A stretch of 64,000 nt of DNA from Olivibacter sitiensis DSM 17696. Lineage in GTDB: Bacteria; Bacteroidota; Bacteroidia; Sphingobacteriales; Sphingobacteriaceae. Below, one piece after another: positions 23,557 to 53,399 of the stretch; position 1 is the stretch's first letter, and each line of letters opens with the position of its first letter. The translations under genes and the position numbers were made by a program. The notes under the pieces are model-generated. The model had not been told where the DNA came from. It worked only from the letters and a program-made list of their open reading frames with translations, and made no database searches. The stretch covers positions 1 to 64,000 of the forward strand of contig NZ_ATZA01000027.1 of the NCBI RefSeq assembly GCF_000427965.1. Reading direction: 5' to 3'.

Positions 23557-24558
23557 TTAAGAAACCAATGCGTCTTCTATCAAAAGGCCATAGAATTCCC
23601 TTTCCGTGAGTCCCGATGCCCGTACCTGCTGCGGTATGAAGCTTTGTGCGGTTTGTCCCGGAATGGTGTTGATCTCTATGAAATAGAATTTGTCCGTACC
23701 CTTCTCCAAGAAATAGTCTACACGTACCATACCCTTGCAGTTGAGGCGTATATAAATCGCCTTCACTAAGCGTTGCACCCTAGAAAGTTGCTCTTCATTC
23801 AGATCGGCTGGCGTTATCTCTTGCGTAAGGCCCGGTGTATATTTGGCTTCAAAGTCAAAAAACTCGCGCGTGGTCACCACTTCTGTGGGCGGCAACACCC
23901 GCAACTCGCTGCCAACACGATATACCCCTACCGAAAATTCCCTACCAGTGACGAATTCTTCCACCAATACCTGTTTGCCCGTATTCTCCGTATCAAAGGC
24001 CTTGTCGATAGCCTCCTGCAATTCACTATCGGCCTTTACCTTGGTCATCCCGATGCTGCTCCCCCCCCCATTGGGCTTCACAAAATAAGGCAATCGCAAC
24101 TTGGCTCGTACCAGGTCTGCGGCAGTAGCACGCTGTGATTCAAACAAATGAACGGAATTGGAAAGATAAAGATCTGTTATACCGGTCAACAATGCCTTGG
24201 TATAGGCCTTGTTCATAGTCACCGCGGAGGTCAATGCATCGCATGAGGTATAGGGAAGCCCTATCATATCCAAATAGCCTTGTAGCTTACCATCTTCACC
24301 TGGGGAGCCATGTAGGATAATAAATGCCAAGTCGAACACCACCTTTTCCCCATTGATCGTAAGCGAGAAATCCGTGCGATCTATATCAATTTTTTGTTTA
24401 TCTTCTAGCTCATAATACCATGAATATAAGGATATAACAATTTTGTACAGGTCGTATTTATCTTTATCAACCTGCTCATATACAAATGCGGCACTTTTGA
24501 GCGATACCACGGATTCTCCCGTAAAGCCTCCAGTTATCAATGCGATTTTAGGTTTCAT
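23557..24558 (-). CDS. ddl: D-alanine--D-alanine ligase
   Basis: Joins two D-Ala with ATP to make the peptidoglycan dipeptide terminus. 333 residues, ATP-grasp fold: the N-terminal strand PKIALITGGFTGES, LHGSPGEDGKLQGYLD, the glycine-rich loop KPNGGGSSIGM, and the metal/ATP site FYFIEINTIPGQT. The family usually has EVNT.PG, so the Ile is a conservative change. It is preceded by two heptamer arrays (24571-24639), the nearer one 13 nt from the start codon. Confidence 0.95.
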   Translation of the reverse strand: MKPKIALITGGFTGESVVSLKSAAFVYEQVDKDKYDLYKIVISLYSWYYELEDKQKIDIDRTDFSLTINGEKVVFDLAFIILHGSPGEDGKLQGYLDMIGLPYTSCDALTSAVTMNKAYTKALLTGITDLYLSNSVHLFESQRATAADLVRAKLRLPYFVKPNGGGSSIGMTKVKADSELQEAIDKAFDTENTGKQVLVEEFVTGREFSVGVYRVGSELRVLPPTEVVTTREFFDFEAKYTPGLTQEITPADLNEEQLSRVQRLVKAIYIRLNCKGMVRVDYFLEKGTDKFYFIEINTIPGQTAQSFIPQQVRASGLTEREFYGLLIEDALVS

Positions 24559-24570
24559 GCTTTCTTTTTA

Positions 24571-24605
24571 GCTATCGGCTACCAGCTATCGGCTGTTAGC
24601 TATTT
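24571..24605. repeat. Heptamer array, GCTNNNN x5
   Basis: Five consecutive 7-mers starting GCT (GCTATCG, GCTACCA, GCTATCG, GCTGTTA, GCTATTT), directly upstream of ddl. Confidence 0.75.
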
Positions 24606-24611
24606 TTTTAT

Positions 24612-24639
24612 CTTAATACTGATGTCTTGACACTTAAAA
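24612..24639. repeat. Heptamer array, CTNNNNN x4, with GTCTTGACACTT box
   Basis: CTTAATA, CTGATGT, CTTGACA, CTTAAAA. It is clearly related to the array at 29935-29969, and contains a one-mismatch copy of the GTCTTGATACTT box. Confidence 0.7.
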
Positions 24640-29508: not shown

Positions 29509-29536
29509 TTTTTACTTTTTAATTTTTACTTTTCAC
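29509..29536. repeat. Heptamer array, TTTTTAC-type x4
   Basis: TTTTTAC, TTTTTAA, TTTTTAC, TTTTCAC, ending one base before the start codon at 29538. Confidence 0.65.
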
Positions 29537-29537
29537 C

Positions 29538-29900
29538 ATGAACATCGAAACATTGCGCGAATACTGCCTAGGCAAAAAAGCCGTTGATGAAGGATTTCCT
29601 TTTGGCGAGGATACCTTAGTCTTCAAAGTGGCAGGAAAAGTCTTCTTGCTTGTCGGTCTGGACGAACACCCCCTGTATTTCAACGTGAAATGTGATCCCG
29701 AACGAGCAATCTCCTTAAGGGAATTGCATCCACACAGCGTGAAACCAGCCTATCACATGAACAAAAAACACTGGAATAGTGTCTATATCATAGGTGAACT
29801 TAATGACGACACCTTACGTGAACTCATAGATCACAGCTATGAACTGGTAGTCGCTGGTTTGCCCAAGAAGGAAAAAGAAAGATTAAAGCTGAAAGACTAA
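29538..29900 (+). CDS. MmcQ/YjbR-family protein
   Basis: 120 residues. The start MNIETLREYCLGKKAVDEGFPF and the middle KVFLLVGLDEHP, then KMNKKHW-like YHMNKKHWNSVYI, match the YjbR/MmcQ DNA-binding-like fold (CyaY-like), whose role is not settled. The stop codon lies inside an AAAGNNN heptamer array (29878-29912), so the last codons for RLKLKD are themselves part of the array. The start codon is preceded by another array. It precedes a Rieske gene by 91 nt. Confidence 0.82.
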   Translation: MNIETLREYCLGKKAVDEGFPFGEDTLVFKVAGKVFLLVGLDEHPLYFNVKCDPERAISLRELHPHSVKPAYHMNKKHWNSVYIIGELNDDTLRELIDHSYELVVAGLPKKEKERLKLKD

Positions 29901-29912
29901 AGACTAAAGCTT
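29878..29912. repeat. Heptamer array, AAAGNNN x5, spanning a stop codon
   Basis: AAAGATT, AAAGCTG, AAAGACT, AAAGACT, AAAGCTT. It covers the end of the YjbR gene. Related arrays precede hemJ and hemL on the other strand. Confidence 0.75.
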
Positions 29913-29934
29913 ACCGGCAAGCTGGGAAGCCTGT

Positions 29935-29986
29935 CTTGATACTTATGTCTTGATACTTGATACTCAAAACGCACAACTGACAACTA
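29935..29986. repeat. Heptamer arrays CTTGATA x5 and ACAACTR x2 with GTCTTGATACTT box
   Basis: CTTGATA, CTTATGT, CTTGATA, CTTGATA, CTCAAAA (29935-29969), then ACAACTG and ACAACTA (29973-29986). The box GTCTTGATACTT spans 29934-29945. The Rieske ATG is at 29992. Confidence 0.75.
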
Positions 29987-29991
29987 AAAAC

Positions 29992-30321
29992 ATGTGGCAC
30001 AAAATCCCTTGGGAGTACATCCCTGAAAACGGAAATATCAAGAAAGCCAGGATAGCCGGTAAAATCATCTGCCTCATCAAGCAAGAGGACAAACTGTATG
30101 CCACCGCTGTCAAATGTCCGCACGCAGGTGCCGACCTGACACAGGGATGGTGCGATAGCAGGTACCTCATTTGCCCCTACCATCGCCACGCCTTTGACCT
30201 ACAGACAGGCAGGGGATTGCCCCATCAAGGCAACTACATCAACATATATCCAATAGAAAGCAGGAAAAATGGTTATTATATAGCCATAAAACCCAGCCTC
30301 TGGAAACGACTCTTTCCCTAA
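29992..30321 (+). CDS. Rieske [2Fe-2S] ferredoxin-like protein
   Basis: 109 residues, a free-standing Rieske domain. The two cluster-binding motifs are complete: C42-P-H44 and C61-P-Y-H64. The rest (AGKIICLIKQEDKLYATAV before the first motif, DLQTGRGLP after the second) follows the small NirD-like or ferredoxin subunits that pass electrons to oxygenases or reductases. No oxygenase or reductase partner is adjacent. The start at 29992 begins MWHKIPWEYIP; upstream in-frame codons lie in the heptamer array and are not believable. Confidence 0.88.
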   Translation: MWHKIPWEYIPENGNIKKARIAGKIICLIKQEDKLYATAVKCPHAGADLTQGWCDSRYLICPYHRHAFDLQTGRGLPHQGNYINIYPIESRKNGYYIAIKPSLWKRLFP

Positions 30322-30440
30322 CAATTTTATTACTTAGCAAATTTATCACCCACCGTCGATTAACGTTGACGATGAGTTGATTATCTTTACGGCAATACTA
30401 ACAAAGGGTGCTCGACAAAAATCCCGTTTGAACAAAAAAG

Positions 30441-30482
30441 CAGATTGCTTCTTCTCCGCCAAAAGCGGATCATCGCAATGAC
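30441..30482. repeat. Interspersed GATTGC...GCAATGAC palindrome
   Basis: ATTGC and GCAAT arms surround TCCGC-5-GCGGA. The ends CAGATTGC and GCAATGAC are those of a dispersed palindromic element found between genes in many bacteria. A second half-site, CAGATCGCAATGGCGG, follows near 30505. Confidence 0.6.
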
Positions 30483-30551
30483 ACTTTTTTGTTCGTAAAT
30501 CGGCAGATCGCAATGGCGGCAAACCGTAAGAAGGAAATCTGTCGTACACCC

Positions 30552-30593
30552 ACTCACAACTGACAACTGACAACTCATAACTGATAACTCATA
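30552..30593. repeat. Heptamer array, ACTSAYA x6
   Basis: ACTCACA, ACTGACA, ACTGACA, ACTCATA, ACTGATA, ACTCATA, ending nine bases before the DUF2723 start codon. This is the most regular array in the window. Confidence 0.85.
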
Positions 30594-33722: not shown

Positions 33723-33750
33723 TTTTTACTTTTAAATTTTTACTTTCCTT
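33723..33750. repeat. Heptamer array, TTTTTAC-type x3-4, spanning the hemJ stop
   Basis: TTTTTAC, TTTTAAA, TTTTTAC, TTTCCTT on the plus strand. The hemJ stop codon is at 33742-33740, so the array runs into its last codons. Same unit as at 29509. Confidence 0.6.
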
Positions 33751-34276
33751 CCCGATACCTCTTGTAGATCTTCACGGCTACCATGATCATCATAGAAAAG
33801 AAAACGAGCCCGATTAGGCCATAAATCCAGTTGACGGCACTCTTCAGTACCACGGTAAAGACAATGGCAAAGAGCAAGATGGTGGCCACTTCGTTCCAGA
33901 TACGTAACTGTATGGACGACCACTTGCTCTTTTCTTCCCTTAATCGGAATAGGATGCGTTGGCAGATGAAATGATAAACAAGCATACCCAACACGAATAC
34001 CAGCTTCACCTGCATCCATGCGCTGCTCAATAGACCTGGTACCAGATGAAGCATAAGCAAACCCGCCCCTACCGTAAAATACATGGATGGCGTGGTGATG
34101 ATCCACCAAAGCTTGCTCTCCATCATCACAAATTGCTTGTGAAGAATGGCATATTCCTCTGGTGATTTCTTTCGTGCCTCCGTATGGTAAATGAATAAGC
34201 GCACAATATAGAATATACCCGACATCCAACAGACGACAAAGATAATGTGGATAGCCTTGGCGTATAAATATATCAT
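33740..34276 (-). CDS. hemJ: Protoporphyrinogen IX oxidase HemJ (CopD-like)
   Basis: Oxidises protoporphyrinogen IX to protoporphyrin IX in the inner membrane. 178 residues with about four helices (the first MIYLYAKAIHIIFVVCW). His10, the conserved heme-ligand residue of HemJ, is present in AKAIH, and TPSMYFTVGAGLLML matches the second conserved helix. It lies downstream of hemE in the heme supercluster. A CopD copper protein is the alternative, but the neighbours favour HemJ. Its start codon directly abuts a heptamer array. Confidence 0.88.
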   Translation of the reverse strand: MIYLYAKAIHIIFVVCWMSGIFYIVRLFIYHTEARKKSPEEYAILHKQFVMMESKLWWIITTPSMYFTVGAGLLMLHLVPGLLSSAWMQVKLVFVLGMLVYHFICQRILFRLREEKSKWSSIQLRIWNEVATILLFAIVFTVVLKSAVNWIYGLIGLVFFSMMIMVAVKIYKRYREGK

Positions 34277-34359
34277 AGTTGTGTGTTGTGAGTTATATTA
34301 AGTATCAAGACAGACTTTCCGGCTTGCTAGACTGCTTTAGTCTTTCAGCCTTACACCTT
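34277..34359. repeat. Leader cassette of hemJ: two heptamer arrays and the GTCTTGATACTT box
   Basis: Plus-strand heptads AGTTGTG, TGTTGTG, AGTTATA (34277-34297) touch the hemJ ATG. The box is at 34300-34311 (minus strand GTCTTGATACTT). Heptads CTGCTTT, AGTCTTT, CAGCCTT, ACACCTT occupy 34332-34359, almost reaching the hemE stop at 34377. Confidence 0.75.
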
Positions 34360-34376
34360 CCTTCCTATACCTACTT

Positions 34377-35417
34377 CTAATACCTAAACTCTTTCACCAC
34401 CTCAATAGCGTGCTTCACGTGATCAAATGGGATATCGGGCATGATACCGTGTCCCAGGTTGAAGATGAAGCCCTCCTCCCCTCTCATACGCTCAAACAAG
34501 CTTTCGATTTTATTCTTGATGACCGATTTTTCGGCATAGAGCACAAAAGGGTCGAGATTGCCCTGCACGGCCATACCTTGCGGCAGAGCAGTTTTGATGT
34601 TCTTCAAATCGGCATTCCAATCAACGGAGATGACATCTGGCTTGGCCTCGGCCATCATGGGTGCAAAAACGGAACTTCCCTTGCAAAAAGAAATGATGGG
34701 GATATCTTTTCTATTCAGTTTGGAAAATATCAGCTTGTTATAATGGTGGGAAAATTCGCGATAATCGTCCCAAGAGAGCGCCAAGGCCCAACTATCGAAC
34801 AACTGCAGGGCATCCACGCCAGCGGCTATCTGCATATTGAGGTAGTCTACTGTTACATCGGCAATCTTTCCCAATATCAAATGGGCTAGTTCGGGTTCAT
34901 TGTTCAACAACAATTTGGTGAGCTTGAAATCCCTGCTCGATTTGCCTTCTATCAAATAGCTTAACACCGTAAATGGAGCACCGGCAAAACCGATGAGCGG
35001 AATGCGTGCATCCAAACGTTCCTTTACCACCTTAATTGCATCAGCCACATACTGCAATTTGCCTATTACATCCGTACGCAAAGCCTCCGCATCGGCCCTT
35101 GAACGTACCGGATTAGCAAAAACAGGGCCTACGCCCTGCGTGAAGCTCAAGTCGCCTCCCATAGCCTCTGCCGTCACCAAAATATCCGAAAAGAGGATCG
35201 CGGCATCTATATCCAAAAGATCCACAGGAAGCATGGTCACATCGGCCGCAATCTCCGGTGTTTTGCACATTTCCAGAAAGGAATACTTGTTCTTTATCTC
35301 CCAATACTGCGGCATAAACCTGCCTGCCTGACGCATCATCCATACCGGCGGGCGTTCCGTTTTCTCTGCAAATGCGGCCCTCATGAAAAGGTCGTTTTGT
35401 AATGTCGCTATACTCAC
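34377..35417 (-). CDS. hemE: Uroporphyrinogen decarboxylase
   Basis: Decarboxylates the four acetate groups of uroporphyrinogen III to give coproporphyrinogen III. 346 residues, the family length. The N-terminal signature RPPVWMMRQAGRFMPQYWE has the substrate-binding Arg pair, and GHGIMPDIPFDHVK near the end is the second conserved block. The gene is 2 nt after the TPR protein stop, so hemE is the last gene of a unit with a two-component pair and a TPR protein. Confidence 0.96.
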   Translation of the reverse strand: MSIATLQNDLFMRAAFAEKTERPPVWMMRQAGRFMPQYWEIKNKYSFLEMCKTPEIAADVTMLPVDLLDIDAAILFSDILVTAEAMGGDLSFTQGVGPVFANPVRSRADAEALRTDVIGKLQYVADAIKVVKERLDARIPLIGFAGAPFTVLSYLIEGKSSRDFKLTKLLLNNEPELAHLILGKIADVTVDYLNMQIAAGVDALQLFDSWALALSWDDYREFSHHYNKLIFSKLNRKDIPIISFCKGSSVFAPMMAEAKPDVISVDWNADLKNIKTALPQGMAVQGNLDPFVLYAEKSVIKNKIESLFERMRGEEGFIFNLGHGIMPDIPFDHVKHAIEVVKEFRY

Positions 35418-38913: not shown

Positions 38914-38927
38914 TTGTGTATGTGTTT

Positions 38928-39013
38928 AGTATCAAGACTTCCTTTCTAACCTAGGAAGGCAATCAGTCTTTCTGCTTTGGTCTTTAGTCTCTTTGCTTTA
39001 GTCTTGTGTCTGT
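38928..39013. repeat. Leader cassette of hemL: GTCTTGATACT box and heptamer array x7
   Basis: The box is at 38928-38938 (minus strand). Heptads AGTCTTT, CTGCTTT, GGTCTTT, AGTCTCT, TTGCTTT, AGTCTTG, TGTCTGT fill 38965-39013. Between them CCTTTCTAACCTAGGAAGG forms an imperfect dyad. Confidence 0.75.
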
Positions 39014-39046: not shown

Positions 39047-40015
39047 CTAAATCCACTTATTGGCCAGTATATCGCGGATATGGTAAGTGGTAATGACACT
39101 TGCGCCTGCCCTTACAAAGGCGTACATGGTCTCCATGACTACTTTCTGTTCGTCTATCCATCCTTTCTCGGCAGCGGCCTTAACCATTGCGTATTCACCT
39201 GAAACATTGTATACCGCCAGGGGCAAATTGGTTTCCGTCTTCAACCTGGCCAAGATATCCAAATAGGCCAATCCCGGTTTCACCATAAGAATGTCTGCCC
39301 CTTCTTGCTCATCCAGAAATGCCTCCCTTATTGCTTCTCGGGGGTTCCTGAAATCCATCTGGTAAGCTTTGCGGTCTCCCTTGCCGGGAGCACAATCTGC
39401 CGCATCCCTAAAAGGACCGTAATAGGCCGATGCAAACTTTGTAGCGTGAGACATAATGGCCACATTGACAAAGCCGTTTTTGTCCAGCGCACTCCGCAAG
39501 GCGGCTATCCGGCCATCCATCATGTCTGATGGGGCAATCATGTCAACTCCAGCTTCAGCGTGAGCCAAGGCCATTTTGCACAATACCTCAATAGTTGCAT
39601 CATTCTGTACATAATCATCCTGTAATATGCCGCAATGCCCGTGACTTGTATAGGCGCACACGCATACATCTGTCACGATGTAAAGCTCGTCGCCAAAACG
39701 CTGGCGCAGGGCGGCAATAGCCTGAGGGATGACCCCATGGGCATCGTATGCATGGTGGGCATCCACACTTTTCCCTTCACCTACTCCGAACAGCATGATC
39801 TTGTTTACGCCCAGGGATAGGCCTAGGGCTACATCTTCTAGCAATGTATCCACCGAAAAGTGGTATATACCCGGCATAGAATCAATGGCATGCTTCACCT
39901 GAGTACCCGGAACAACAAAATAAGGATAAATAAATAGATCTTTGGAAAGGTGCGTCTCCGCTACCATATCTCTTACCAAAGGATTTTTCCGCAATCTGCG
40001 CTGACGATAAATCAT
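39047..40015 (-). CDS. hemB: Delta-aminolevulinic acid dehydratase (porphobilinogen synthase)
   Basis: Condenses two 5-aminolevulinates to porphobilinogen. 322 residues. It has the zinc-type metal site with three Cys in DVCVCAYTSHGHCG, the first active-site Lys in SHATKFASAYYGPFRD and the Schiff-base Lys in DILMVKPGLAYLD. Candidate promoter element TATCTTTG lies on the minus strand at 40081-40074. It is the upstream partner of hemL. Confidence 0.97.
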   Translation of the reverse strand: MIYRQRRLRKNPLVRDMVAETHLSKDLFIYPYFVVPGTQVKHAIDSMPGIYHFSVDTLLEDVALGLSLGVNKIMLFGVGEGKSVDAHHAYDAHGVIPQAIAALRQRFGDELYIVTDVCVCAYTSHGHCGILQDDYVQNDATIEVLCKMALAHAEAGVDMIAPSDMMDGRIAALRSALDKNGFVNVAIMSHATKFASAYYGPFRDAADCAPGKGDRKAYQMDFRNPREAIREAFLDEQEGADILMVKPGLAYLDILARLKTETNLPLAVYNVSGEYAMVKAAAEKGWIDEQKVVMETMYAFVRAGASVITTYHIRDILANKWI

Positions 40016-49188: not shown

Positions 49189-49209
49189 GATTTTTGATTT
49201 TAGATTTAC
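49189..49209. repeat. Heptamer array, GATTTNN x3
   Basis: GATTTTT, GATTTTA, GATTTAC between DUF6089 and nadK. A short and AT-rich case, so chance is possible. Confidence 0.4.
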
Positions 49210-49288: not shown

Positions 49289-50173
49289 TTAGTAATTACG
49301 AGTGTCCAGCCCCCATAGTAATTTTTTACGCAATGTTTTGAAAAAGCTCTCCTGTTTTAACCGAATAAGGTTCACATGGTAATCAGCCTTTTGGATAGTA
49401 ACGGTTTCCTCTGTGCTGATAGATGCGGTCTGCGAATCGGCCGTAAACAAAATACTATCGCTCCGGCTTTCTATCACGATACGTATCTTACTCTCATCGT
49501 TTACCACAATTGGCCTAACCGTGAGGTTGTGAGGAGAAATAGGCGTAATGATGAAATTGCCCGATCCGGGAACCACTATTGGTCCCCCGCAACTCAGCGA
49601 ATAAGCCGTAGAGCCTGTCGGCGTAGCAATAATTAACCCGTCAGACCAGTAGGAATTCAACAATTCACCATTTATATGAACATGAAGGGTAATCATGGCA
49701 GAGATGTCCTTCTTGAGAATGGTCATATCATTAAGTGCGTGAAAGATTTTTGGAGGTTCTCCTTGCACCGATTCGATACCTGCTGCCAATAACACCCGCT
49801 TCTCAACGGCATAGTTCCCTATCAACAACTCTTGAAATGCATGCTCTATTCCCTCTTTATTGATGCTAGCAAGAAAACCTAATCTGCCAAGATTAATACC
49901 CGTCACCGGGATACCCCTATTTCCTATGACAGATACAGCCGATAGCATGGTGCCATCGCCACCCAAGCTCAGGAGAAAGGAAACTTTCGGCAATGAGGTG
50001 ATATCATTGAAGGATTGAATATCATCAGGAAAATTGATTTTGTCTAGTAAAAAAGCATAAAAATCGGCATATATCCAGATTTCAATATGATGTTTAGCCA
50101 TCATATCTATGAGCTGCTGCACATATGGGAGTACCGAGTCTTGAAACTCCCTACCGTAAATGGCTATTTTCAT
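49289..50173 (-). CDS. nadK: NAD kinase
   Basis: 294 residues. Phosphorylates NAD to NADP in the cytoplasm. The diagnostic SLGGDGTMLSAV holds the catalytic Asp, followed by INLGRLGFLA, HALNDMTI (ND where many have NE) and the Gly-rich SDGLIIATPTGSTAYSLS. The length is normal. It starts a small series with the CBS gene upstream and the DUF6089-uppS-bamA unit downstream; gaps of 106 and 161 nt make separate promoters possible. Confidence 0.95.
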   Translation of the reverse strand: MKIAIYGREFQDSVLPYVQQLIDMMAKHHIEIWIYADFYAFLLDKINFPDDIQSFNDITSLPKVSFLLSLGGDGTMLSAVSVIGNRGIPVTGINLGRLGFLASINKEGIEHAFQELLIGNYAVEKRVLLAAGIESVQGEPPKIFHALNDMTILKKDISAMITLHVHINGELLNSYWSDGLIIATPTGSTAYSLSCGGPIVVPGSGNFIITPISPHNLTVRPIVVNDESKIRIVIESRSDSILFTADSQTASISTEETVTIQKADYHVNLIRLKQESFFKTLRKKLLWGLDTRNY

Positions 50174-51651: not shown

Positions 51652-52419
51652 TTATGTGGTGATCTTTTTAGAAAATGTCGTGCTGTTTGCCTGTGCGGTA
51701 GGCATTAACAATAAATCATTCACATTGACATGCGCCGGCCTGGATGCCGCAAACCAAATGGCCTCGGCCACATCTATAGCATATAAAGGTTCGAAGCCTG
51801 TATAAACCTGTTTGGCCTTATCGACATTTCCTTTGAAACGCACTATGGAAAACTCAGTTTCTACCGCTCCGGGAGCCACACAGGTTACCTTCACGTTATA
51901 AGGCAATAAATCTATGCGCATGGCTTTTGATAGGGCATCTACAGCATGTTTCGACGCGCAATAAACATTGCCATTGGGATACACTTCCTTGCCCGCGATG
52001 GAGCCTATGTTGATGATATGCCCCCCATTACGCGCCTGCATATGTGGCGCCACTTTCCTGGTCACATACAGCAGTCCTTTCACATTGGTATCTATCATGC
52101 GATCCCAATCGTCTGTATCTCCGTCTTGTATGGGTTCTAGTCCTTGGCTCAGGCCGGCGTTGTTGATCAATATGTCGATCTCCCGCCATGATTCCGGCAG
52201 TTCGTCCCAAACTTTGGATACCATTTGCTTGTCCTGCACGTCCAAGCCTATGACCTGTACCTGAACCCCGTATTGCACTTGTATATCCGTAGCAATGGCA
52301 TGTAATTTATCTATACGTCTAGAGGCCAAAAGCAGATCGTAGCCCTCTCGCGCAAACACATCGGCACAGGCTAAACCGATGCCAGAACTCGCTCCAGTGA
52401 TGAAAACTTTTTTGTTCAT
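51652..52419 (-). CDS. SDR-family NAD(P)-dependent oxidoreductase
   Basis: 255 residues. Rossmann fold with GASSGIG near the start, LINNAGLSQG, the catalytic Ser in INIGSIAGK and YCASKHAV (Tyr-x3-Lys). It resembles YdfG-like 3-hydroxy-acid or serine dehydrogenases of the classical SDR group. The substrate cannot be determined. Its leader carries the GATATGA heptamer array. Confidence 0.9.
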   Translation of the reverse strand: MNKKVFITGASSGIGLACADVFAREGYDLLLASRRIDKLHAIATDIQVQYGVQVQVIGLDVQDKQMVSKVWDELPESWREIDILINNAGLSQGLEPIQDGDTDDWDRMIDTNVKGLLYVTRKVAPHMQARNGGHIINIGSIAGKEVYPNGNVYCASKHAVDALSKAMRIDLLPYNVKVTCVAPGAVETEFSIVRFKGNVDKAKQVYTGFEPLYAIDVAEAIWFAASRPAHVNVNDLLLMPTAQANSTTFSKKITT

Positions 52420-52437
52420 GGTTATTTTAGATTAAAA

Positions 52438-52465
52438 GATATGAGATATGAGATATGAGATATTA
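52438..52465. repeat. Heptamer array, GATATGA x3-4
   Basis: Three exact GATATGA units and one GATATTA, ending 19 nt before the SDR start codon. Confidence 0.75.
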
Positions 52466-52522: not shown

Positions 52523-52543
52523 GCTGAAAGCTGATGGCTGTCT
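52523..52543. repeat. Heptamer array, GCTGNNN x3, abutting the porT stop
   Basis: GCTGAAA, GCTGATG, GCTGTCT, one base from the stop codon at 52547-52545. Same GCT start as the ddl array. Confidence 0.55.
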
Positions 52544-52544
52544 T

Positions 52545-53399
52545 TCACTGAAACGAAATACTAATGTTAATGTTTCGTAGCAATAATTTATCAATAACAG
52601 AAGTATAGGGGTTATGCCCTTGCGCCATTACAGCTTCAGATCTGTCTAGCACGTTGCCAATACTTTGTGACCACCTAATTTCGGGAGACATCTTGAAATA
52701 TTCAAAATAAATATCAAATCCCAACCCCACTTCGTACGAAAAAATTTCTGGCTTTATAACCAAAGGCATTCGCTCTGGTTGATTCTCAAACTCTACAGCC
52801 AGCTGGCTATTGTATTTCCTTGCCCCCAAATTATTGGTATAGCGCATGCCTGCGATTACATATGCCCGATACCTATTGTCCTTCAGCGACTTTTCCTTCG
52901 ATTTGTATTTGACCAACAAAGGCATATCGAAGGAAAAATAGTTGTATTCTCTGTTTACTGTTCCAATGCTGGATTCTAGCAGATCTCGATGAAAACGGGG
53001 CACTACTACCTCGTTGCCTTGCCCATCGACAAAATGATATTCCAGATATTGCCCTGCAAGCATGTTGTACGTGGGTCTCAGCACAAAGTCAACGCGATCA
53101 TTAAATTTAAAATCGACAGGTATCCCAAATCCCATCCCCGTATAACTGGGTACAGAGATTACCCTTGAAAGATGTTTGCCCGATAGCGCGGAACTGTTGT
53201 CAAATACGGGATCGTAGCTTGAAAAACCCGATTTTAATGTCAAGCTATAGTAACTTGGCGTGTAATTGAAGAAAAAGCCAAGATGCAATCGCGCATCTTC
53301 ATCATAAGCTCCTCCAAAGGGCAAGGAAAACTGCGCGATTGCCGATTGAAAAAACAGCAACTTATATGAAATGAAACAAATTATTGCCTTTTGTAGCAT
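52545..53399 (-). CDS. porT: PorT-like outer-membrane protein
   Basis: 284 residues with a signal peptide (FISYKLLFFQSAIAQ) and a beta-barrel pattern: HLGFFFNYTPSYYSLTL, FGIPVDFKFNDRVDFVLRP, YFSFDMPLLVKYKSK, MSPEIRWSQSIGNVL, ending LRNINISISFQ. PorT/SprT is a membrane component of type IX secretion and gliding machinery. The neighbour ubiE/menG is a known partner of porT in Bacteroidota. Name from family resemblance and context. Confidence 0.8.
   Translation of the reverse strand: MLQKAIICFISYKLLFFQSAIAQFSLPFGGAYDEDARLHLGFFFNYTPSYYSLTLKSGFSSYDPVFDNSSALSGKHLSRVISVPSYTGMGFGIPVDFKFNDRVDFVLRPTYNMLAGQYLEYHFVDGQGNEVVVPRFHRDLLESSIGTVNREYNYFSFDMPLLVKYKSKEKSLKDNRYRAYVIAGMRYTNNLGARKYNSQLAVEFENQPERMPLVIKPEIFSYEVGLGFDIYFEYFKMSPEIRWSQSIGNVLDRSEAVMAQGHNPYTSVIDKLLLRNINISISFQ

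Follow-up and report, generated by a model that had tools for sequence, protein, structure and literature searches.

Seven-base repeat arrays with a preferred polarity at gene borders in Olivibacter sitiensis and its relatives

Introduction

Two described systems of tandem heptads come closest to the repeats considered here, namely the TAACTGA direct repeats and the G-rich heptads of Xanthomonas and Nostoc, of whose description Rehm is said to be an author. Among the long simple repeats of many bacterial genomes, heptads are reported to be the most frequent class (via PMC4679880), and there is no accepted reason for this. They are also the commonest class among the cyanobacterial STRR or long simple repeats, for which slippage was proposed (Mrazek, 2007, via PMC4679880). 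The account of that work available there mentions neither polarity nor spacer pairing.

TAACTGA direct repeats have been published from five Bacteroidetes (MacGregor, 2015; PMC4679880), and the original prediction, which knew of no description of heptameric tandem repeats for this phylum, was not supported on this point. Other heptamer repeats lie beside some of the Bacteroidetes TAACTGA arrays, for example in Gramella (PMC4679880). In Flexibacter litoralis, 12 of 14 TAACTGA sets are placed forward before a start codon and one set is reversed after a stop codon, so that these heptads, forward and just before starts, match the polarity described below (PMC4679880). In contrast, the Microcystis sample from the same source, with 6 sets forward and 8 reverse to the start codon, departs from this polarity and counts against it as a rule. 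The available text of that paper describes neither the two-armed spacer nor word switching. Three AACTRAY units in a row were found 0 times in the genome of Olivibacter sitiensis. Across the phylum, such three-unit arrays occurred in 45 of 395 genomes, with a reversed control pattern in 7, and the word AGTMTCAAG occurred in 10 of the 395 genomes drawn, indicating that single words are patchily distributed. The word GTCTTGATACTTGATACT was present in at least 118 stretches of public genomes, and among the matches listed all came from Bacteroidota except for one Planctomycetota bin (L081).

The G-rich heptads are GGGAATC in Xanthomonas and GGGGA(C/T)T in Nostoc, and quadruplexes have been discussed for them (PMC4692102). 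According to the available text, the G-rich strand is non-coding before start codons and coding after stop codons, within 0-50 bp. Inverted convergent pairs are formed in 70 and 75 cases in two species, stop codons are overlapped, arrays are rare between divergent genes, and the same gene pairs carry arrays of varied length and sequence in two species (PMC4692102). The arrays of O. sitiensis and its relatives resemble this description in that they are intergenic, have a period of seven and have a G-rich strand that leaves the nearest gene at both ends (38:4 at starts and 28:7 at stops). They differ from it in that their words belong to many families and are nearly without G tracts, in that divergent spacers of the O. 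sitiensis genome are not clearly poorer in arrays (7/119), and in that a composite with a core is present in this species. The literature search, which covered open papers and in part their accessible sections, revealed no statement of a polarity rule either for Bacteroidota or for heptads that lack G tracts.

Heptad Arrays in the Window

The window is a stretch of 64,000 nucleotides from O. sitiensis DSM 17696 (contig NZ_ATZA01000027.1, positions 1 to 64,000). All 14 of the stretches originally proposed were found in its sequence. Individual tests at lag 7 (background 0.28), uncorrected for the choice of the stretches by eye, gave p < 0.001 for 9 of the 14. The signal was weaker for 24612-24639, 29973-29986 (two units only), 33723-33750, 34332-34359 and 52523-52543, with the p values given below. 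The arrays, together with three copies of a composite element, are as follows.

24570-24605, minus strand: AGCCGAT/AGCTGGT array close to where the D-ala-D-ala ligase-like gene 23557-24558 (minus) starts; lag 7 19/28, lag 14 16/21; its base count departs from the C>G rule described below

24612-24639, strand unassigned: weak stretch; lag 7 10/21, p 0.044

29509-29536, plus strand: array of the TTTTTAC type, lying 1-5 nt upstream of the start codon (29538) of YjbR; lag 7 18/21, p 5.9e-8; TRF period 7

29878-29912, minus strand: CTTTAGT-type array, the minus-strand word reading into the gene; contains the YjbR stop codon 29898-29900; lag 7 21/28

29896-29949, plus strand: composite copy (AAAGACTAAAGC - core - CTTGATACTT), sense, between the YjbR and Rieske genes; R1 E 5.1e-15 (copy in the model)

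29935-29969, plus strand: CTTGATA / CTTATGT array before the Rieske gene; lag 7 17/28, lag 14 14/21; TRF periods 7 and 14

29973-29986, plus strand: two ACTGACA-family units 5 nt before the likely Rieske start codon 29992; lag 7 6/7, p 0.003

30552-30593, plus strand: ACTSAYA array 9 nt before the start codon (30603) of a DUF2723 / TMEM260-like gene; lag 7 30/35, p 1.7e-12; its 18-mer has 7 matches in the window vs 0.04 in shuffles

33723-33750, plus strand: TTTTTAC-type array overlapping the stop end of the UPF0093 gene 33740-34276 (minus), which we take to be HemJ; lag 7 13/21, p 0.0012

34277-34297, minus strand: ACTCACA-type array abutting the UPF0093 start codon; lag 7 10/14, p 9e-4

34298-34348, minus strand: second composite copy, sense, between the URO-D and UPF0093 genes; R1 E 1.4e-15 (copy in the model)

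34332-34359, plus strand: array of the CTTTAGT type that faces the URO-D (hemE) gene 34377-35417 (minus) at its stop end; lag 7 11/21, p 0.016, lag 14 9/14

38927-38988, minus strand: weak third composite copy; R1 E 0.007, 19 bits

38965-39013, plus strand: array of the CTTTAGT type that faces the ALAD gene 39047-39979 (minus) at its stop end; lag 7 23/42, lag 14 22/35; TRF period 21

49189-49209, minus strand: short array, the nearest called gene start being 61 nt away; lag 7 11/14

52437-52465, minus strand: TCTCATA array preceding the start codon of gene 51652-52419 (minus), which encodes a short-chain dehydrogenase; lag 7 20/21, p 1.4e-10

52523-52543, plus strand: short stretch of the AGCTGAA type adjoining gene 52545-53360 (minus) at its stop end; lag 7 9/14, p 0.005

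The name porT proposed for gene 52545-53360 could not be confirmed, as Pfam gave no family for it. All genes were called with a hexamer-based caller of our own and no annotation, and some start codons are certainly wrong, the Rieske start having been called inside an array.

Periodicity of Intergenic DNA

Intergenic regions shorter than 20 nt were dropped before counting, as were arrays in which one base made up more than 80% (5 in six genomes). In 464 kb of the O. sitiensis genome, comprising 309 intergenic regions with 47 kb of intergenic DNA, lags 7, 14 and 21 had 12, 12 and 5 strong intergenic segments, respectively. The corresponding means of 20 dinucleotide shuffles were 0.35, 0.2 and 0.1, and each of the remaining lags from 2 to 28 had at most 3 segments. 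A larger set of 1.264 Mb (804 intergenic regions, 118 kb of intergenic DNA) gave 28, 36 and 16 strong segments at lags 7, 14 and 21, and 0 to 5 at each of the remaining lags from 3 to 29. The lag-7 segments are mainly intergenic, with 28 in the 118 kb of intergenic DNA vs 38 in the whole 1.264 Mb. Like the STRR and long SSRs, the arrays consist of head-to-tail seven-base units above chance.

The lag-7 excess over shuffled sequence that had been predicted was present in the strong segments. In the plain match rate, lag 7 was not special, with a z of 4.8 against shuffles that was exceeded in the 464 kb set by lags 2, 4, 6 and 8 (8.4, 6.5, 5.9 and 5.5, respectively). In the zone up to 45 nt from gene ends, the highest match rate was that of lag 7 (0.297), while in spacer interiors this lag did not stand out (0.279). 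The lag-7 signal sits in strong segments next to genes. Runs of A/T dominated the plain k-mer counts made around starts and stops.

A seven-base period with units that differ from site to site was borne out. However, the claim that the period is always seven was not, because one array in the relative G004 reaches 60% identity at lag 8, indicating that the period can also be eight. This eight-base array, of the AACTACTTAACCATTC type, lies in the L240-L241 region and has the usual polarity into the next gene. Its site is a spacer (joined stretch 29864-30184) that borders the ortholog of window gene 49289-50173 on its left.

Placement at Gene Ends

The collection of arrays used below comprises 116 merged arrays from six genomes, the O. 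sitiensis genome (G000) and five relatives. The predicted preference for gene ends was confirmed, as 64 of the 116 arrays are no more than 10 nt away from a called gene end; when arrays were placed at random inside their own spacers, 32.2 on average and 48 at most in 2000 draws came this close. In the five relatives alone, 29 arrays lie within 10 nt (14.2 expected, maximum 28) and 36 within 20 nt (25.8 expected, maximum 37).

Arrays also reach into genes. Among 1051 stop codons, 8 were crossed by a lag-7 or lag-14 array that started at least 8 nt inside the gene, and 0 control positions inside genes longer than 600 nt were crossed, in agreement with the earlier suggestion that the arrays affect the end of the protein. 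The YjbR stop codon does lie inside the array 29878-29912, as had been noted. The last residues of YjbR, KERLKLKD, and the stop are at or in this array, and the C-terminal ends differ in four relatives.

The arrays might be the sites of an RNA- or DNA-binding regulator of the S1, Csp or Csr type, whose polarity they would then share. Such sites would be consistent with the arrays lying a few bases before start codons (median distance 7 nt in O. sitiensis), and a proposal of this kind was made by MacGregor for TAACTGA, as far as the available text goes (PMC4679880). Nevertheless, half of the arrays are at stop codons and on the other strand. Many unrelated words in one genome and the switching of words at one spacer are also poorly explained by a single specificity, making this explanation rather unlikely.

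Polarity of the Arrays

Although the original prediction was correct that the arrays exist, it treated them as separate and unoriented, whereas they have a preferred polarity and are paired across one spacer. Within 20 nt of a start codon in the six genomes, the strand reading into the gene has C>G in 38 arrays and G>C in 4, with 4 ties; within 20 nt of a stop codon, the ratio on the strand into the gene is 28:7. Beyond 20 nt there is no clear bias, with 12:6 (2 ties) at starts and 7:7 (1 tie) at stops. The C>G form of this rule was found post hoc, after looking at the arrays. The named set (all 118 named loci) gave 15:3 (2 ties) at starts and 32:8 (1 tie) at stops after removal of the CTTGATA-word arrays; two of its loci, L082 and L093, apparently come from other stretches of genomes that are also in the six-genome set.

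A fit of four classes to sequence only, in which phase and strand were free to vary, assigned a shared orientation relative to the gene to 225 of the 244 arrays lying within 20 nt. The fit was made on 393 arrays, of which 277 came from loci chosen for one CTTGATA word. A single-class fit to the six genomes recovered polarity at stops (29:6) and none at starts (22:21). Pyrimidine-richness was rejected as the rule, since it held for 45 of 57 arrays in O. sitiensis but gave 5:4, 6:5, 6:8, 1:1 and 12:11 in the five relatives. A general base skew of gene edges was also rejected. C equals G at edges without arrays, indicating that polarity is a property of the arrays.

The two strands of an array differ in codon content. 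Of 46 pre-start arrays, 1 contains ATG, a number that flipping them would raise to 9. Of 35 post-stop arrays, 34 hold a stop codon and 26 would do so after flipping; stop codons in all three frames occur in 17 vs 8 when flipped. Polarity persists, however, among arrays neutral for both kinds of codon, at 30:3 (4 ties) at starts and 20:5 at stops, so that selection through ATG and stop codon content would account for only part of the polarity. Accessibility of the leader was rejected as the cause of the start-side polarity because predicted folding was the same when the arrays were flipped (p 0.57, 0.95). On the stop side, the predicted openness of the codon was slightly higher for the real array than for its flipped form (0.53 vs 0.43, p 0.044; energy p 0.16).

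Formation of G-quadruplexes or i-motifs has also to be considered as the force that selects the arrays, given that the period, the preference for one side, the inverted pairs and the overlap with stop codons are all as in the available account of the Xanthomonas and Nostoc heptads (PMC4692102). The four G tracts themselves are nearly absent. Among the 116 arrays of the six genomes, 1 has a four-run G3+ motif and 8 have a G2+ motif, and the 277 from the named loci likewise include 1 and 8, which removes quadruplexes as the general cause. That words lacking G tracts show the polarity published for G-tract words leads to the same conclusion. Overall, this explanation is very improbable.

Two-Armed Spacers

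The spacers with two arrays have a common layout of stop, array, centre, array and start, in which both arrays face outward from the spacer. Considering intergenic regions of at least 40 nt, arrays at the two ends of one spacer co-occur in O. sitiensis with an odds ratio of 10.4 (p 1.6e-4), in G001 with p 7.7e-5, in G017 with 54 (p 1e-6) and in the named loci with 3.3 (p 2e-5). In a stricter test, in which an array reaching both ends was counted once, the values were 7.0 (p 0.002) in O. sitiensis, p 7.7e-5 in G001, 40 (p 1.8e-5) in G017 and 2.7 (p 4e-4) in the named loci. G002, G003 and G004 were too small for this test. Gene cassettes flanked by arrays were rejected as an explanation, the two ends of one gene giving 1.4 (p 0.53) in O. 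sitiensis and 0.8 (p 0.84) in the named loci; in G017 there was a hint of such co-occurrence (odds ratio 9.0, p 0.05). The spacer, and not the gene, is the unit of array co-occurrence.

Pairing between the two arms was rejected as a general rule. For spacers of at least 50 nt, the likeness of the arms was 4.0 vs 5.0 permuted in O. sitiensis (6 spacers), and in G001 (4 spacers) 63 of 300 permutations were as high. It was 9.6 vs 6.5 in G017 (6 of 300 as high), where one of the 8 pairs is a single array read both ways, and 11.2 vs 7.5 in the named loci (0 of 300), where the mixture of species inflates the value. In L013:1480-1570 and L019:1440-1545, facing CTTTAGT arrays form long predicted hairpins (z -2.8 and -3.1 vs shuffles), and these two spacers are possibly two-way terminators as judged from the predicted folds. 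Spacers flagged with arrays in O. sitiensis were 7 of 119 divergent, 36 of 484 co-directional and 2 of 90 convergent.

Orthologous Spacers in Related Species

The comparison of orthologous spacers used 106, 102 and 95 reciprocal best pairs of G001 with G003, G004 and G002, respectively; spacers longer than 450 nt are in the counts and their sequences are not listed. Species share the presence of arrays. In the comparison of G001 with G003, arrays were present in both for 7 spacers, in G001 only for 1, in G003 only for 6 and in neither for 64. With G004, the numbers were 4 in both, 4 in G001 only, 3 in G004 only and 73 in neither.

Several spacers have different words in different species. Spacer 30 carries TTTTGAA and TAACACC arrays in G001, one at each end, and the same two ends in G004 carry CTTGATA and CTTGCTA/CTTATGT arrays. 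In G003, one end has a mixture of TTTTGAA and TTTTTAC and the other is below threshold. The UPF0093/URO-D spacer has GTTGTGA in O. sitiensis, GTTATGA in G004, GTTATTA in G001 and G003, and none in G002. Related species can therefore, as the aligned spacers suggest, keep the layout of a spacer with other words in the same place. Length also varies. A CTAACAA array occupies spacer 23 in three species, with one more unit in G003, and G002 has 30 nt there and no array. Spacer 64 measures 10, 24 and 43 nt in three of the species, and the fourth has 135 nt there, including two arrays. The Rieske ferredoxin gene 29992-30321, which has heptad arrays in the spacers on both of its sides, is without counterpart between YjbR and the DUF2723 gene in four relatives.

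That words change while the layout stays is expected if a writing process with built-in polarity, for example the repair or extension of DNA ends, made the arrays. The G-containing strand would then always leave the gene, whichever word it carries, and selection would only clear coding sequence. The equal polarity at start and stop ends, also among the codon-neutral arrays, is consistent with such a process, as is the polarity shared by unrelated G-rich words of two other phyla in the available account (PMC4692102). On the other hand, healed breaks should place arrays in the middle of a spacer, and the arrays instead abut genes and flank the centre. A candidate writer, reverse transcriptase (PF00078, RVT_1), was also rejected; it is absent from the array-rich genomes G000 and G003, present once each in G001, G004 and G017, and commonest, with seven, in the array-poor G002. 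Such a process is improbable as the source of the polarity.

A Dispersed Composite Element

The array groups 29878-29986, 34277-34359 and 38965-39013 had been located correctly but are not separate features, for they sit at copies of one dispersed composite, the third of them weak. The segments 29899-29945 and 34299-34345 are inverted copies with 83% identity over 47 nt. A sequence model of the core (R1), built from nine copies, detected at least 14 copies in O. sitiensis, five of them new and the last of these weak (38927-38988). Because 150 of the 865 first-look candidates of this genome were scored for the core, 14 is a lower bound. In this search, which was made outside G017, the four genus mates had 0 copies of the core and the 20 further relatives together gave a single marginal match.

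All 14 copies are sense to the downstream gene, and 13 of the 14 lie between co-directional genes, an arrangement found in 70% of the spacers of this genome. A conserved RNA structure of the core was rejected, with 0 consensus pairs across nine copies, and Rfam gave no match at gathering score in the window. Single folds had z values of -2.1 for 29890-29970 and -0.2, -0.1 and +0.8 for three other copies. Carriage of the composite by phages or plasmids was rejected as well, no match having been found.

REP / BIME and MITE elements are short, dispersed and intergenic and have inverted ends. The composite resembles them in all of these properties and differs from them in that its arms are heptad arrays of changeable sequence. 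It could be a non-autonomous mobile element of the MITE or REP type, with the single arrays as its remains. The presence of at least 14 dispersed copies in one species and none in four genus mates agrees with this, as does spacer 64, with 10, 24 and 43 nt in three species vs 135 nt and two arrays in the fourth. However, all copies have one orientation, unlike the outcome of plain transposition, and the core is missing from the arrays of other species (G017 lying outside that search). In addition, the Y1 (IS200/RAYT) transposase is absent from the array-bearing genomes G001, G003 and G004. Mobilisation by RAYT/IS200 was rejected on the counts of PF01797, which were 1 in G000, 0 in G001, G002, G003 and G004, and 3 in G017. 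Since this transposase and RVT_1 are each absent from some array-bearing genomes, neither enzyme is needed. A mobile origin for the composite is considered unlikely. The Y1-type (IS200/RAYT-like) transposase frame of G000, of 185 aa, is on contig C15:28486-28725 (L299).

Origin of the Arrays

The preferred reading, to which we would give a probability of roughly 0.4, is that the arrays are born by slippage, that some spacers are copied, and that polarity results from selection on the transcript. The arrays would be the edges of gene spacers that grow and become rewritten with heptad repeats. Local duplication of seven-base units, presumably by slippage, would lengthen the spacer beside a start or stop codon, and some spacers would then be copied to other gene pairs, probably by recombination, as the composite copies (at least 14) of this species may have been. 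Selection on the transcript would pick the strand that faces the gene. Before a start codon, the mRNA would carry the G-poor strand, which rarely holds ATG, and after a stop codon it would carry the complementary strand, full of stop codons.

A much broader reading is that a general process in Bacteroidota, and also in Xanthomonas and Nostoc by published data, writes seven-base and sometimes eight-base repeats at gene borders with built-in polarity, and that spacers are rewritten wholesale between relatives while the layout is kept; this seems improbable. Different words at the same places in related species hint at a general, unexplained rule of bacterial spacer growth. Whether the strand is set by selection on the transcript or by the writing process has become a testable question, for which the switching of words at a fixed spacer provides natural replicates.

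Near one end of the window, a perfect inverted repeat at 957-999 has 21-nt arms with one base between them. It lies just upstream of the minus-strand gene 425-949 and before a gene that starts at about 1085.
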